Assembly (NCBI RefSeq): GCF_946885855.1 | Contig: NZ_CAMPHH010000126.1 | Location: 1 to 9,481, forward strand | Source of the DNA: an uncultured Actinotalea sp. | GTDB lineage: Bacteria; Actinomycetota; Actinomycetes; Actinomycetales; Cellulomonadaceae | Length of the DNA stretch: 9,481 nucleotides | Direction: 5' to 3' | Part shown: piece after piece, positions 2,263 through 7,060 of the stretch | Layout: each line of letters starts with the position of its first letter | Position numbering within the stretch: the first letter of the stretch is position 1 | Notes under the pieces: model-generated | What the model was told of the DNA's origin: nothing | The model's database searches: none | The model's input: only the letters and a program-made list of their open reading frames with translations | Program-made: the position numbers and the translations under genes

Positions 2263-3453
2263 CTAGGGCTCGTACAGGTCGACGGTGACGGCGACCACGG
2301 TGCCGTCGTCGGCGAGGAACAGGTCGACCGAGAACCATGCAAGGCACGTGGTGATCGAGTCCTCCGCCGGCTGCACGGAGACGCGGCGGGCGTCCGCCAG
2401 GCCGGCGGGTGCCGGTACCGGCGGGGAGGCGCAGTGCGGGTGCTCGCCGACGGACGTCTGCAGCCCGGTCCCGAGACGCTGGGCCCCGTCCGGCTCGGCG
2501 AGGTGCTCCTGGAGGACCGTCAGGGCGGAGACCGGTCCGGAGCGCGCGCGGAACCCGTCCGTCTCGAGCAGCCAGGCCTCGGGGTCGGATACCAGCTGCA
2601 CCGGCAGCGTCCGCACGAGCGTCGGCCCTAGTCCTAGTTCGACGCCGCCCGGTGCCAGCGGCAGAGCGTTCGCCGTGGCGCGATCCGGCTGCTGCGCGAA
2701 GCGCACGAAGGCGTCGATCAGCGCGGCGTCGGTCACGGTGATGTCGGCACCGTCCGTCGGCTCGTCGGCAGCGTCGGTGTCAGCCGTCCCGGGCTCGCCG
2801 CTGTCCGCGGGGCGGGAGGCGGAGTGCTCCGGCACCCAGAGATTCGAGGCGGCGGAGACCCATCCCTCGTCGGGAGCTCGGAACACGTCGGGCACCAGGA
2901 AGGCGCTCGCCGTCCCGCGGCCGGCCCCGTCGGCGACGTGGAGGGACAGCGGCAGTCCCCTGGCGGCGAAGTCATCGAGGCTGGTGCAGCCGGATGCCGT
3001 GCTCCAAGCGTCTGCTCCTGCAGGCAACGCGAGCACGAAGCACACCTGGTCATCCGCAGCCGCGACGTACGCGTGTGCCGCGCCGGCGTCGGGCAGGCGC
3101 CGCACCTGATCCGTCTCGAATCCTTGAAGCCGCGACACCTGTGGTGGAGCCACGTCGCCGGAGGTGACCGGCTCGCGGAAGGGTCCGAGCACGTCCCGCA
3201 CATCCTGGACGGGACCCGGCGCCCATCTCGCCGGGTCGACGACCACCTGACGGTGCGGCGTGGCGAGCTCGACGACCGCACCCCCGACCACGAGCACGCC
3301 CGCGACCCCCGCCACCAGGCCGCCGACCAGCCGTCTCCGGCGCGCACGCCGCCCCCGTGCCGTGACGGCATCGACCGATAGGGCCATGGGCGGGGCGATC
3401 GCCTCCGCATGGTTGCGTAGCAGGGCGGCGTCGTCGTCGTCGGTCCGATTCAT
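2263..3453 (-). CDS. single-pass membrane protein encoded with ECF sigma factor; putative anti-sigma/sensor
   Basis: This 396-residue protein is not an enzyme family I recognise. Residues 1-41 are a short cytoplasmic tail that starts MNRTDDDDAALL and ends in a strongly basic run (RGRRARRRR). A single transmembrane segment follows at about 42-61 (LVGGLVAGVAGVLVVGGAVV). The rest should lie outside the membrane. It forms two blocks: about 85-210, with C138 and C156 in a CFVL...SGC pattern, and about 255-396, joined by an acidic linker (217-237). Two more cysteines occur near the C-terminus. The start is set by the ATG at 3453, which overlaps the sigma-factor stop (ATGA), and by GGGAGGAGG at 3459-3467. 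The operon position and topology suggest regulation of the sigma factor, but the tail is shorter than a usual anti-sigma domain and has no HxxxCxxC zinc motif. Two adjacent CTA leucine codons, rare at this GC, lie at 2629-2637. The gene ends 11 bases from the convergent thiolase stop. Confidence 0.8.
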   Translation of the reverse strand: MNRTDDDDAALLRNHAEAIAPPMALSVDAVTARGRRARRRRLVGGLVAGVAGVLVVGGAVVELATPHRQVVVDPARWAPGPVQDVRDVLGPFREPVTSGDVAPPQVSRLQGFETDQVRRLPDAGAAHAYVAAADDQVCFVLALPAGADAWSTASGCTSLDDFAARGLPLSLHVADGAGRGTASAFLVPDVFRAPDEGWVSAASNLWVPEHSASRPADSGEPGTADTDAADEPTDGADITVTDAALIDAFVRFAQQPDRATANALPLAPGGVELGLGPTLVRTLPVQLVSDPEAWLLETDGFRARSGPVSALTVLQEHLAEPDGAQRLGTGLQTSVGEHPHCASPPVPAPAGLADARRVSVQPAEDSITTCLAWFSVDLFLADDGTVVAVTVDLYEP

Positions 3454-4016
3454 GACTGCCTCCTCCCGGGAACGGCATCGGCGGCACCGACGTCGTGCCC
3501 CTGTCCGAGGGCGCCGTCGCCCTCGTCGTCGAGCAGGGTCCGCAACCGGGCGAGCGCGCGGGACGCCGTGGACTTCACCGTTCCCAGGCTCACCCCCAGG
3601 TCGTCCGCCACCTCGGCCTCCGACAGACCGACGAAATGGCGGAGCACGACCACGCGACGCTGGCGGGTCGAGAGGGACTGCAGGGCGCCGACGAGTCGTG
3701 CTCGCTCGACGACCTGCGCCTCGTGACCCTGGCGTGCGGCGGCCGGCAGGTCGTCCACCGACGTCAGGACCTCTCGCCGTCGGCGCCGCCACCCGTCGAT
3801 CCGCGCGTTGGCGAGTGACCGCCGCGCGTAGGCCAACGGGTCCATCTCACGCGCCCGGCTCCACGCGACGTACGTGCTCACGAGCGCTTGCTGCGCGAGC
3901 TCCTCGGCCCGGTGGACGTCTCCGCAGAGCAGCCACGCGGTGTGCAGGAGGGCTCCGGAGTCCGCCGCCATGAGGGCGGCGAACGCCGCATCGCGCTGTC
4001 CCGCCTGGTCGCCCAC
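3450..4016 (-). CDS. SigE-family ECF RNA polymerase sigma factor
   Basis: The protein has 188 residues. Region 2 spans about 12-82 and includes the family-typical LLHTAWLLCGDVHRAEELAQ and DPLAYARRSLANARIDGWRR. Region 4 spans about 108-160 (ALQSLSTRQRRVVVLRHF, then the helix-turn-helix VADDLGVSLGTVKSTASRAL). There is no sigma-3 domain, as expected for an ECF factor, and the pattern resembles the actinobacterial SigE family. It directs RNA polymerase to a specific promoter class, usually in response to a cell-surface or stress signal. The start is a GTG at 4016 with GGGAGG at 4021-4026; this spacing is short, so M16 is a possible alternative. Its stop overlaps the downstream membrane-protein gene by ATGA, which marks a sigma/regulator pair. 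An ECF-like promoter at 4066-4093 suggests it drives its own transcription. Confidence 0.92.
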   Translation of the reverse strand: MGDQAGQRDAAFAALMAADSGALLHTAWLLCGDVHRAEELAQQALVSTYVAWSRAREMDPLAYARRSLANARIDGWRRRRREVLTSVDDLPAAARQGHEAQVVERARLVGALQSLSTRQRRVVVLRHFVGLSEAEVADDLGVSLGTVKSTASRALARLRTLLDDEGDGALGQGHDVGAADAVPGRRQS

Positions 4017-4574: not shown

Positions 4575-4619
4575 GAGAGTGACTGGACACTCACCAATGG
4601 TGAGTGTACGGTCACTCTC
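4575..4619 (+). promoter_or_regulatory. 45-bp palindromic tetR operator with embedded promoter
   Basis: Two 22-base arms flank a single A at 4597 and match at 20 of 22 positions. Each arm region also holds a smaller inverted repeat of form GAGTG-N6-CACTC (4577-4592 and 4602-4617), 25 bases centre to centre. A sigma-70-type promoter is embedded: TGGACA at 4584-4589, 17 bases, TACGGT at 4607-4612. Bound repressor would cover both hexamers, so tetR should repress itself. The predicted start point falls at about 4619-4620, the first base of the ATG, implying a leaderless transcript. Confidence 0.82.
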
Positions 4620-5216: not shown

Positions 5217-5228
5217 GCTGTCGATAGT

Positions 5229-5244
5229 GAGTGATTACTCACTC
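5229..5244 (+). promoter_or_regulatory. TetR operator of the small-protein/exporter operon
   Basis: The 16 bases read GAGTG-ATTACT-CACTC, the same arms and spacing as the two sites in the tetR promoter (4577-4592 and 4602-4617). It is also part of a slightly wider inverted repeat, AGTGAGT-N4-ACTCACT (5226-5243). GATAGT (5223-5228) could be a -10, but no good -35 was found. The site lies about 20 bases before the first small ORF, a position suited to repression. Confidence 0.75.
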
Positions 5245-5264
5245 AAGCCACGAGAGGAGGAATT

Positions 5265-5348
5265 ATGACCAAGGACATGACGATGCGCTGGGTCGCCCTG
5301 GCGCCGCTCGCGCTCATCGCCGTCGCGATGTTCAGCCAGTGGAGCTGA
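5265..5348 (+). CDS. 27-residue single-span membrane protein
   Basis: A short reading frame starts MTKDMTMRW and ends AMFSQWS. It has one of the best ribosome binding sites in the window (AGAGGAGG at 5253-5260, four bases before the ATG). Residues about 9-23 (WVALAPLALIAVAMF) form a hydrophobic helix long enough to sit in the membrane; basic residues K3 and R8 before it predict a cytoplasmic N-terminus. It is the first frame after the TetR operator, so it would be the leading product of the repressed operon. No family is recognised. Known tiny partners of transporters, such as AcrZ and KdpF, show that such proteins can tune a transporter, and that is the suggested role. A leader peptide with no function as a protein is the alternative. 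Confidence 0.65.
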   Translation: MTKDMTMRWVALAPLALIAVAMFSQWS

Positions 5349-5352
5349 ACCC

Positions 5353-5397
5353 ATGACGCCAACCCTTCCCACCCCGACACAAGGACGACAACCATGA
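5353..5397 (+). CDS. possible 14-codon linking ORF between the two small membrane proteins
   Basis: The frame MTPTLPTPTQGRQP fills the gap between the two small membrane-protein genes. Its start lies four bases after the first stop, a GTGGAG sequence sits eight bases upstream (5339-5344), and its TGA overlaps the ATG of the next gene. The composition (Thr, Pro) shows no domain. It may serve only to pass ribosomes along, or may be chance. Confidence 0.22.
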   Translation: MTPTLPTPTQGRQP

Positions 5398-5534
5398 CCG
5401 ACACCGCCGACTCCGCAGCCACGGCTCTGCCCACCACCGACGCCAAGACCGTCTCCGTCGAGAGAGCCGCGTGGTGGATCACCTTCGGCGCCCTCACGGT
5501 CGCCCTGGTCACCATGCTCGGCCTCTGGGACTGA
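5394..5534 (+). CDS. 46-residue single-span membrane protein
   Basis: The protein has a polar N-terminal half (MTDTADSAATALPTTDAKTV, residues 1-20), then SVER and one hydrophobic helix at about 26-45 (AAWWITFGALTVALVTMLGL), ending in WD. K18 and R24 ahead of the helix predict the N-terminus inside the cell. An AAGGA element at 5380-5384 lies nine bases before the ATG, and the start also overlaps the stop of the 14-codon frame. The codons are GC-ending in the third position, as in neighbouring real genes. Like the 27-residue protein, it ends with a tryptophan followed by one small polar residue. It precedes the exporter gene by 101 bases. A transporter accessory subunit is the best guess; no family is recognised. 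Confidence 0.65.
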   Translation: MTDTADSAATALPTTDAKTVSVERAAWWITFGALTVALVTMLGLWD

Positions 5535-5541
5535 CGCCCAG

Positions 5542-5576
5542 GACCCGGGGGACGGGAACGCTCCGTCCCCCGGGTC
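5542..5576 (+). terminator. strong 14-bp hairpin between small-protein genes and exporter gene
   Basis: GACCCGGGGGACGG (5542-5555) and CCGTCCCCCGGGTC (5563-5576) are perfect reverse complements around a 7-base loop. The structure is very stable and lies eight bases after the stop of the 46-residue gene. There is no T-tract, so it could be a partial terminator, an mRNA-stabilising 3' end for the small-protein message, or an attenuator in front of the exporter gene. Confidence 0.7.
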
Positions 5577-5635: not shown

Positions 5636-7060
5636 ATGACCATCACCGTCCCGACCGCCCCACCCGCGCCGGCCCGCCGCAGCAGCCGCCGCTGGCTCGC
5701 CCTGGGCATCCTGGCCCTCGCCCAGTTCCTCGTCGTCCTCGACGCGTCCATCGTCAACATCGCCCTGCCCGTCCTCGGGCAGCAGCTCGACATGGGCACC
5801 GCCGCCCTGTCCTGGGTCATCACCGCCTATGTCCTCGCCCTCGGCGGCCTGCTCCTCCTCGGCGGACGCCTCGCGGACCGGTACGGACACCGCCGCTTCT
5901 TCCTTGTCGGCACCGCGGGGTTCGTCGCCGCGTCCGCCCTGGCGGGCCTGTCGACCACCACCTCGATGCTGCTGAGCGCCCGAGCCGTGCAGGGTGCGTC
6001 CGCCGCGCTCCTGGCCCCCGCAGCCCTCGCCCTGCTGACGCACCTGTTCCCCGAGACGAAGGGCCGCACGAAGGCCCTCGGTGTCTGGGGCGCCGTCGCC
6101 GGCCTCGGGTCCGCCGCCGGTGTCCTCCTCGGCGGCGTCCTGACCGCCGCGTACGGCTGGCCGTCGGTGTTCTTCGTCAACATCCCGGTCGGCGCGGTCG
6201 TCCTCATCGCGATCCCGCTGCTCATCACCCCCGACGCCCGTGGCGTGCGGAGCAGGCTCGACGTCCCCGGGGCGGCGACCATCACCGGTGCTCTCGTCGC
6301 CGCCGTCGGCGCGCTCAGTGCTGTCGAGCAGGTCGGCCTCCTCGACCCGCTGGCCATCGGTCTGGCGGCGACGGCGGTCGTGCTCGGCTTCGCCTTCGTC
6401 CGTGTCGAGCGTCGGGCCGCCGACCCTCTCGTGCCTCTCCAGGTGTTCCGGAACCGGCACCTCGCGGTCGGCAACGTCGTCATGCTGCTCATCGGAGCGG
6501 CCATGGTGGCCCTGTTCTTCGCGCTCTCCGTGTTCATGCAGGCCGTCCTCGGCTACGGCGCGCTCGCCACCGGGCTCGCGCAGCTGCCGCTGGCCGGCGT
6601 CCTCGTGGTCGTCGCCGGCGTCGCCCCCGCGATCGTCGGACGCGTCGGCACCGGGCCCACGCTGGTCGGATCCCTCGTGGTGCTTGCGGCGGGTCTCTTC
6701 TGGTTGTCGTTCGCCCCGTCGTCGGCAGTGTTCAGCTCCCAGATCCTCGGGCCCACCGTGCTCATCGGACTCGGCTTGGGCGGCGCGTTCGTCACCACCA
6801 CCCAGCTGGCCGTCGACGGCGTCGCGGAGCGCGAGGCGGGCCTTGCCGGCGGCCTCGTCAACACCAGCCAGCAGATCGGCGGCGCCGTCGGCCTCGCCGT
6901 CCTCGGCACCCTGGCGGCGCTCCGGACCGAGTCGCTCGCGGAGCTCGGCGTGGCGACGCCCGATGCCCTGACCGGTGGGTTCTCGTGGCTCTTCCTCGGC
7001 GCCGCCGCCCTCAGTCTCCTCGGTGCCCTCGTCGCCCGGGCAGCAGGCGGTGGGCGCTGA
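5636..7060 (+). CDS. DHA2-family (EmrB/QacA-type) MFS multidrug exporter
   Basis: The protein has 474 residues and the hydrophobic profile of a 14-helix drug/H+ antiporter in the cytoplasmic membrane. Visible motifs are D1 (LDASIVNIALP, 35-45), motif A in the loop after helix 2 (GGRLADRYGHRR, 76-87), the motif B region beginning RAVQGASAALLAP (116-128) and a motif C-like GSAAGVLLGG (158-167) in which the usual proline is absent. YGWPSVFFVNIPVG is a further family mark. It would expel a toxic organic compound using the proton gradient; the substrate cannot be inferred. The ATG at 5636 is chosen because the protein then begins with a short basic tail before helix 1; the in-frame extension upstream is Pro/Arg-rich and runs over the hairpin and the small gene. 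The ribosome binding site is weak (GAAAGTGG at 5621-5628). Upstream TetR and operator place it under inducible control. Confidence 0.93.
   Translation: MTITVPTAPPAPARRSSRRWLALGILALAQFLVVLDASIVNIALPVLGQQLDMGTAALSWVITAYVLALGGLLLLGGRLADRYGHRRFFLVGTAGFVAASALAGLSTTTSMLLSARAVQGASAALLAPAALALLTHLFPETKGRTKALGVWGAVAGLGSAAGVLLGGVLTAAYGWPSVFFVNIPVGAVVLIAIPLLITPDARGVRSRLDVPGAATITGALVAAVGALSAVEQVGLLDPLAIGLAATAVVLGFAFVRVERRAADPLVPLQVFRNRHLAVGNVVMLLIGAAMVALFFALSVFMQAVLGYGALATGLAQLPLAGVLVVVAGVAPAIVGRVGTGPTLVGSLVVLAAGLFWLSFAPSSAVFSSQILGPTVLIGLGLGGAFVTTTQLAVDGVAEREAGLAGGLVNTSQQIGGAVGLAVLGTLAALRTESLAELGVATPDALTGGFSWLFLGAAALSLLGALVARAAGGGR

Follow-up and report, generated by a model that had tools for sequence, protein, structure and literature searches.

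Twin single-span microproteins, likely paralogous, are conserved behind a TetR operator in actinobacteria, mostly beside a DHA2-type exporter gene

AcrZ, the partner of AcrB in E. coli, is represented in Pfam, NCBIfam and the PDB sequences. KdpF, which is tiny and hydrophobic, is a small subunit of the Kdp transporter. In Rhodobacter pufBA, the genes for two small single-span proteins are followed by a hairpin and then by the gene for a large membrane protein. DHA2 pumps such as EfpA, QacA and EmrB move lipophilic compounds, and we know of no exporter of this type that comes with two microproteins. Few microproteins are known to us at drug exporters, and to our knowledge none has been established for MFS pumps. 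The frame mdtU precedes mdtJI and was proposed to be a regulatory uORF (PMC7815308).

We analysed a stretch of 9,481 nucleotides from an uncultured Actinotalea sp. (the window), in which two small frames, ORF1 and ORF2 (the twins), are found with a tetR gene and a gene for a DHA2-type exporter, all four on the plus strand (Table 1). A first-pass annotation of the same DNA had described the two frames, their order and binding sites, the TetR operator 5' and the DHA2 gene 3' of them, and all of this was found to be correct; AAGGA precedes ORF2 as its ribosome binding site. The TetR protein has the features of a local repressor, namely a TetR_N domain and palindromes at its own and at the target promoter, and a site similar to the one at the start of tetR recurs at the tetR of relatives. 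The exporter scored 176.8 bits against the MFS_1 domain (PF07690; gathering score 33.4) and 227.6 bits against the NCBIfam subfamily TIGR00711 (cutoff 230.2). Its nearest solved relatives among PDB sequences are EfpA, QacA and EmrB. The closest relative of the locus that we found is in Actinotalea ferrariae, with TetR 93% and exporter 89% identical.

Table 1. Features of the locus, with positions in the window unless a locus is named
Feature	Position	Strand	Evidence or remark
Operator region at the tetR start, AGTGACTGGACACTCACC (4578-4595) and GTGAGTGTACGGTCACTC (4600-4617)	4578-4617	.	
TetR-family repressor, 187 aa	4620-5183	+	PF00440, E 1.2e-09
TetR operator, palindrome AGTGAGTGATTACTCACT, 5' of ORF1	5226-5243	.	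motif
ORF1 ribosome binding site, AGGAGG	5255-5260	+	4 nt 5' of the ORF1 ATG
ORF1, 27-aa single-span microprotein, MTKDMTMRWVALAPLALIAVAMFSQWS	5265-5348	+	reading frame and conservation
ORF2, 46-aa single-span microprotein, C-terminus WWITFGALTVALVTMLGLWD	5394-5534	+	reading frame and conservation
15-bp hairpin, GACCCGGGGGACGGG-AACGC-TCCGTCCCCCGGGTC, in the gap between ORF2 and the exporter gene	5542-5576	+	no T-tract
DHA2-type MFS exporter, 474 aa	5636-7060	+	PF07690, E 7.3e-52
SRPBCC protein with C-terminal anchor ending SLW(D/N)	L066:8367-8972		PF10604; also across L120-L132

Each of the 16 pair-carrying genomes that were searched had the operator motif, and every site with 0-1 mismatches lay at this locus. 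Operator-like sites with two mismatches away from the locus numbered 38 over the 16 genomes, against 24 for a reversed control pattern. Two such sites recur with identical letters, GAGTGAATGACGTACCACTT in G003, G208 and G252, and AAATGAGTGAGCACTCACTC in G007 and G738; they are possible further targets. Elsewhere in the window, consecutive genes for a 3-hydroxyacyl-CoA dehydrogenase, a thioesterase and a thiolase (Pfam; positions 2-2251) may belong to a degradation operon of the phenylacetate type. Within 2263-4016 lies a gene for an ECF-type sigma factor (3450-4016, minus strand), followed, at the position of an anti-sigma factor, by a 396-aa protein with no Pfam match.

To find relatives, TetR rather than the small frames was used as the first anchor. 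A contig scan gave 34 TetR relatives: seven with both frames intact 3' of tetR (L001, L002, L003, L005, L008, L009 and L011), one with ORF2 and a broken ORF1, and 26 with neither frame. In a TetR tree with four of the 18 more distant loci included, L001-L016 (16 loci) grouped with the window, apart from these four (support 100/100). The exporter gene directly follows tetR, with the twins absent, in L004, L007, L010 and L012, and other genes lie 3' of tetR in L013-L016. Neither ORF1 nor ORF2 was found at any of the remaining 18 TetR loci. At L017-L028 (Nocardioides, Antrihabitans, Rhodococcus), TetR relatives lie divergent beside DHA2-like MFS genes, and the small frames are absent. The broken ORF1 is that of Labedella populi (L006, about 3646-3786), where 2 nt are deleted compared with the near-identical L. 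phragmitis locus; the ORF2, TetR and exporter frames are all open, and the break either happened in nature or stems from a sequencing error.

Genome searches with an ORF1 profile added nine loci (L045-L049, L061-L063 and L077). In all, both frames were intact at 17 distinct loci, the window counted, with ORF1 5' of ORF2 in every one; they span at least three actinobacterial families. This sample was partly found through ORF1 itself; L006 stands outside it as the one extra locus, and both L006 and L077 are outside the ORF1 and ORF2 alignments (16 rows). Of 398 genomes in the family of G002, eight had strong matches to the ORF1 profile, the broken ORF1 among them; the counts elsewhere were 5 of 396 in the order of G001, 4 of 200 in the family of G001 and 5 of 295 in the genus of G002, and the four sets overlap. 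We dropped as chance 11 of the 19 genome matches in the family of G002 and one of the five in the family of G001, inside which a smaller search was nested; the dropped matches were frames of at least 184 aa with E-values of 2.7e-5 to 0.009, of which L050 was inspected. In a search of 10 genomes at E up to 1, the five matches whose E exceeded 0.01 were likewise taken for chance.

With an ORF2 profile of nine rows, 38 proteins were found among 5.8 billion, the window's own included. They are named "hypothetical", "uncharacterized protein" or by a bare status word, and none carries a functional name. The first-pass annotation had called the frames too short for standard gene callers, which may fit ORF1; for ORF2, homologues have been deposited, some as "hypothetical protein". 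A plasmid search with ORF2 gave no match. A phylum-wide ORF2 search of 396 genomes returned the query genome only, which is weak evidence of absence because at most 18 candidates were scored per genome. Neither ORF matched anything above chance in Pfam (best E 0.24), NCBIfam (0.11), PHROGs (0.02) or the PDB sequences (0.24, a 45-residue chain named AmoD).

We then asked how far the two proteins are conserved. In ORF1, seven positions are invariant over the 16 aligned loci: M1 (encoded by GTG in two), R8, W9, L12, P14, F23 and W26. ORF2 has a variable N-terminal tail and a conserved stretch of 24 C-terminal residues, in which E23, W27 and W45 are invariant. A hydrophobic stretch is present in both ORFs at 17 of 17 loci, with a best 17-residue hydropathy mean in the window of 1.94 for ORF1 and 1.92 for ORF2. 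An AlphaFold model of a linked read-through construct placed helices at 3-27 and 60-88 with low confidence (mean pLDDT 66.9), and gave no supported contact between the two helices (pTM 0.34). The hydropathy and this low-confidence model agree with the one hydrophobic helix per protein of the first-pass annotation, and both proteins do end with Trp and one polar residue. Its statement that basic residues precede each helix is thinly supported: Arg8 of ORF1 is invariant, while the net charge before the helix ranges from -2 to +2.

Selection on the frames was examined in eight disjoint pairs of loci (16 of the 17, L063 being left out) over the last 25 codons, each substitution being reassigned at random among positions that carry the same base. 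ORF1 showed 44 amino-acid differences where 74.1 were expected (lowest of 5000 randomisations 60), and ORF2 60 where 79.0 were expected (lowest of 5000, 66). Summed over the eight pairs, the BLOSUM scores were above every randomisation for both ORFs. Frames shifted by one or two positions gave no comparable deficit, either for ORF1 (82 observed against 76.2 expected, and 75 against 68.4) or for ORF2 (82 against 81.4, and 72 against 79.1). Taken singly, two of eight ORF1 pairs and four of eight ORF2 pairs had P above 0.05 by amino-acid differences alone; by BLOSUM sums, only the pair of the window and L001 did so, for ORF1.

Over the same last 25 codons, the window and L001 gave dN/dS of 0.53 (ORF1) and 0.79 (ORF2), which is uninformative, and L002 and L077 gave 1.11 for ORF2. 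L045 and L046 differ in the last 25 codons of ORF2 by five synonymous changes and no others. Across all pairs pN/pS was 0.49 for ORF1 and 0.76 for ORF2, ratios that synonymous saturation and GC bias must blunt. The first-pass annotation had put its proposal at risk on conservation of the peptides and an excess of synonymous change among relatives; this check has now been carried out, and the proposal survived it. ORF1 and ORF2 are genuine conserved genes under purifying selection. We had also considered chance open frames, which are ruled out by the recurrence and the selection.

Aligned without gaps from their C-termini, the twins share a pattern, mostly E-x-T-x2-W-x16-W-x-stop. Mostly common to both are E/D at -24, T at -22, W at -19, M at -6, F or L at -5, a small residue at -4, W at -2 and a polar final residue. 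HHalign compared ORF1 with ORF2 at a probability of 71 (E 3.7e-5, single comparison). In a gapless C-terminal scan of each ORF against the other's profile, the mean score was 33.6, above all of 7,244 membrane-like control 24-mers (highest scores 27.7 and 25.7). The controls were taken from genes predicted in the loci by a crude caller, which overlooks some genes where the DNA is less GC-rich. Against the ORF1 profile, the lowest score of a single ORF2 sequence was 16.6. Among 12,587 scored C-termini, no other reached 18 except the broken ORF1; this set includes overlapping loci, and ORF1 of L084 stands in it alone because the piece ends before ORF2.

Permutation of the core columns gave P 0.017 (one test, 9 of the 17 loci). 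In 100 such permutations scored by HHalign, the 95th percentile was 20.1 and the maximum 26.5, so that some exceeded the score of 22.0 between ORF1 and ORF2. The first helix of the exporter scored 23.05 against ORF1 by HHalign, compared with that 22.0, and 27.7 in the gapless scan, below the ORF2 mean. We conclude that ORF1 and ORF2 are likely paralogues by their sequences; this is not proven, because exporter helix 1 matches ORF1 equally, core permutations sometimes score higher and single ORF2 scores are low. The N-terminus of the exporter (window 5678-5750), whose first helix reads RRW-x-AL-x2-LAL, resembles ORF1, and ORF1 could have arisen from this helix.

The genes around the twins vary. 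The order of the window, tetR-operator-ORF1-ORF2-DHA2 MFS, was found at 13 of 17 loci, and ORF2 lies directly 5' of an MFS gene at 16 of 17, with L063 as the exception. The same exporter clade is beside the twins at 15 of the 17, so the bias toward a DHA2 exporter partner is real. L049 has the order tetR-ORF1-operator-ORF2-MFS, and L062 (taken as Cellulomonas sp. DKR-3) tetR-operator-SRPBCC-ORF1-operator-ORF2-MFS. Promicromonospora thailandica (L011/L073) has tetR-operator-ORF1-ORF2-different MFS-Dabb protein; this MFS was not found with the window exporter at E 1e-4 (blastp E about 0.01). In G722 (L063/L065) the order is tetR-operator-epimerase-like gene-ORF1-ORF2-hairpin-class A beta-lactamase gene (PF13354), where the epimerase-like call was made by eye, Pfam finding nothing in the truncated frame of L063. 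No exporter relative was seen in G722 within 18 kb around the twins, and the whole genome has no close exporter orthologue (best 36% identity); the best exporter identity was 89% in G001, 68% in G738 and 42% in G007, the P. thailandica genome.

These variants bear on the proposal, raised in the first-pass annotation, that the twins associate with the exporter or modulate it as AcrZ and KdpF do for other transporters, or act on their own. That they are AcrZ/KdpF-like small subunits which bind and tune this DHA2 exporter would agree with the exporter clade adjoining them at most loci, and pump-modulating small membrane proteins are known, AcrZ on AcrB being one case (PMC7267776). The twins nevertheless stand with a different MFS at L011/L073 and with no exporter relative nearby at L063/L065. 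At four loci (L004, L007, L010 and L012) TetR and exporter are kept without them; here it may be said for the subunit reading that a modulator could be lost while the pump stays. In the TetR and exporter trees, twin-carrying and twin-free loci interleave, and L009 (with twins) and L010 (without) are sisters (support 100/99 for TetR, 99/99 for the exporter). These variants weaken the idea of dedicated subunits: the twins are probably not dedicated to this DHA2 exporter, and we regard the subunit reading as rather unlikely. Of the earlier proposal, the co-placement with the exporter under a local TetR stands, and binding of the AcrZ or KdpF type is weakened. The twins may loosely modulate several exporters, or act alone in the membrane.

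The same variants were weighed for a reading of the twins as membrane-active growth inhibitors, similar to type I toxins, or as selfish small genes. Short hydrophobic proteins can be toxic in other bacteria, as reported for TimP (PMC7667032). That the twins follow a TetR operator in the company of exporter or enzyme genes speaks against this, and loci which keep the rest of the operon without twins argue against addiction, making such a role very improbable.

The operon of L062 drew attention to a further gene. Its SRPBCC protein has about 40 extra C-terminal residues, absent from most relatives, which are basic, then hydrophobic, and end in ALSLWD. Among 100 SRPBCC homologues listed, 25 have W at -2 (21 LSLWD, 2 LSLWN and 2 FSLWD). 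A close relative was found in 7 of 111 genomes of the family of G738, and at 7 of 7 of these loci the same TetR and an operator-like site lie 5' of the SRPBCC gene. Five loci (L128-L132) have the order tetR-operator-SRPBCC-MFS-Dabb, the MFS being 56-63% and the Dabb protein 79-88% identical to those encoded after the twins in P. thailandica. L127 reads tetR-operator-DHA2 MFS-operator-SRPBCC, with an exporter 78% identical to that of the window. In otherwise alike operons, the slot 3' of the operator is thus taken by the twins or by an anchored SRPBCC protein whose end resembles theirs, and at L062 by both, a further point against a dedicated subunit of the exporter. The ligands of SRPBCC proteins are often hydrophobic.

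We considered whether the SRPBCC anchor could be ORF2 copied into a fusion, and set this aside: HHalign gave a probability of 16 to ORF2, over nine terminal columns only, and of 5 to ORF1, and we do not claim homology. In G1208 (L123/L130), the TetR by the SRPBCC gene looks frame-shifted, because it matches in two pieces in different frames; the SRPBCC, MFS and Dabb genes are open.

We also examined the gap between ORF2 and the gene that follows. At 11 of the 17 loci, ORF2 is followed by a stem of at least 12 bp, a length that no more than 2 of 100 dinucleotide shuffles attained. It begins 3-11 nt past the stop at ten loci and 29 nt past it in L063. The hairpin recurs as a structure with sequences that differ between loci, and between the window and L001 a C-G pair is replaced by an A-T pair. 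Such a stem is missing at 6 of 17 loci: the hairpin is weak or absent in L009, L011, L047, L049 (10 bp) and L062, and L077 has a longer-loop stem, read by eye, which the stem test missed. No T-tract follows the hairpin in the window. It may terminate, process or stabilise the transcript, and through it the twins might be made in larger amounts than the exporter.

The hairpin also admits ORF2, and perhaps ORF1, as a leader peptide, in which drug-dependent ribosome arrest at the C-terminus would let transcription pass the hairpin and enter the exporter gene. The conserved last 24 residues of ORF2 would occupy the ribosome exit tunnel, the hairpin closely follows the stop at 10 of 17 loci, and MdtU offers a precedent, C-terminal conservation included (PMC7815308). 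Against such a leader, L049 and L062 have ORF1 on the 5' side of an operator, with ORF2 and the exporter on its 3' side, and the twins of L063 have no exporter relative after them. L009 and L011 are without such a hairpin, the exporter starting almost immediately, and in L127 the SRPBCC gene with the similar ending sits after the exporter. Moreover, the divergent twins of L047 and L063 keep hydrophobicity more than identity. On balance a leader function appears quite unlikely.

Our preferred reading, to which we give an even chance, is that the twins form a TetR-controlled, exchangeable membrane accessory module for lipophilic toxins, likely paralogous to each other and not dedicated subunits of the exporter. 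TetR would repress itself and the twin-exporter operon through the local operators. TetR repressors of such layout are usually relieved by ligand, and an inducer, probably lipophilic, would lift the repression. The twins would then be the first products, perhaps outnumbering the exporter on account of the hairpin after ORF2, and would insert in the cytoplasmic membrane with the N-terminus inside. There they could act jointly as an exchangeable accessory to whichever exporter is present, conditioning the bilayer or helping to present membrane-dissolved substrate to the exporter. Joint action is suggested by the constant order at the 17 loci and by the 34 TetR loci, at which both frames or neither were found, L006 with its broken ORF1 apart. 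We infer that the cassette responds to a toxin that is lipophilic and perhaps aromatic. At L013-L016 (Nocardia, Streptomyces), the tetR genes of the same branch precede genes that, by eye, resemble those for quinone oxidoreductases or carotenoid oxygenases, a hint that the inducer is aromatic or a terpenoid.

A wider form of this idea would treat the twins and the SRPBCC anchor as alternative plug-in membrane modules, each with a helix ending W-(N/D)-stop, in a TetR cassette that can be combined with different exporters. Such modules would capture or concentrate a lipophilic toxin for any of several MFS pumps, with the twins kept in excess by the hairpin. We regard this extension as unlikely.

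The twins make up a family of two conserved genes under a clear regulator; they are naturally absent from some loci, stand beside another partner elsewhere and have an apparent substitute in the anchored SRPBCC protein. These natural variants provide ready-made comparisons on what such microproteins do. ORF1 is moreover a functional gene of just 27 codons, below the usual annotation length. In soil actinobacteria, the twins are candidates for a new kind of toxin-tolerance helper.

Compared with known systems, the twins share with AcrZ that they are single-span microproteins linked to multidrug efflux. AcrZ is one protein with an RND pump, whereas here two proteins occur with more than one partner and without a family match; homology to AcrZ was not found in Pfam, NCBIfam or the PDB sequences (best E 0.24, 0.11 and 0.24). 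As with KdpF, the small-protein genes open a transporter operon and encode tiny hydrophobic products. The Kdp complex is fixed, whereas the transporter next to the twins varies or is absent; neither Pfam nor NCBIfam matched the twins to KdpF, and their neighbours are TetR and MFS genes, not a kdp operon. The likeness to pufBA is an analogy of layout only. By sequence, the window exporter belongs near the DHA2 proteins EfpA, QacA and EmrB. MdtU is similar as a small conserved frame 5' of an exporter, with a conserved C-terminus and RNA structure downstream, and differs in that the twins are two frames, conserved over whole membrane helices, found also away from the exporter and split by an operator (PMC7815308 for MdtU). 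A literature search, to which most subscription papers were closed, showed no description of such twins. A microprotein beside a transporter is of a known kind, and its twin, partner-switching form with an anchored enzyme as substitute is new as far as our searches go.
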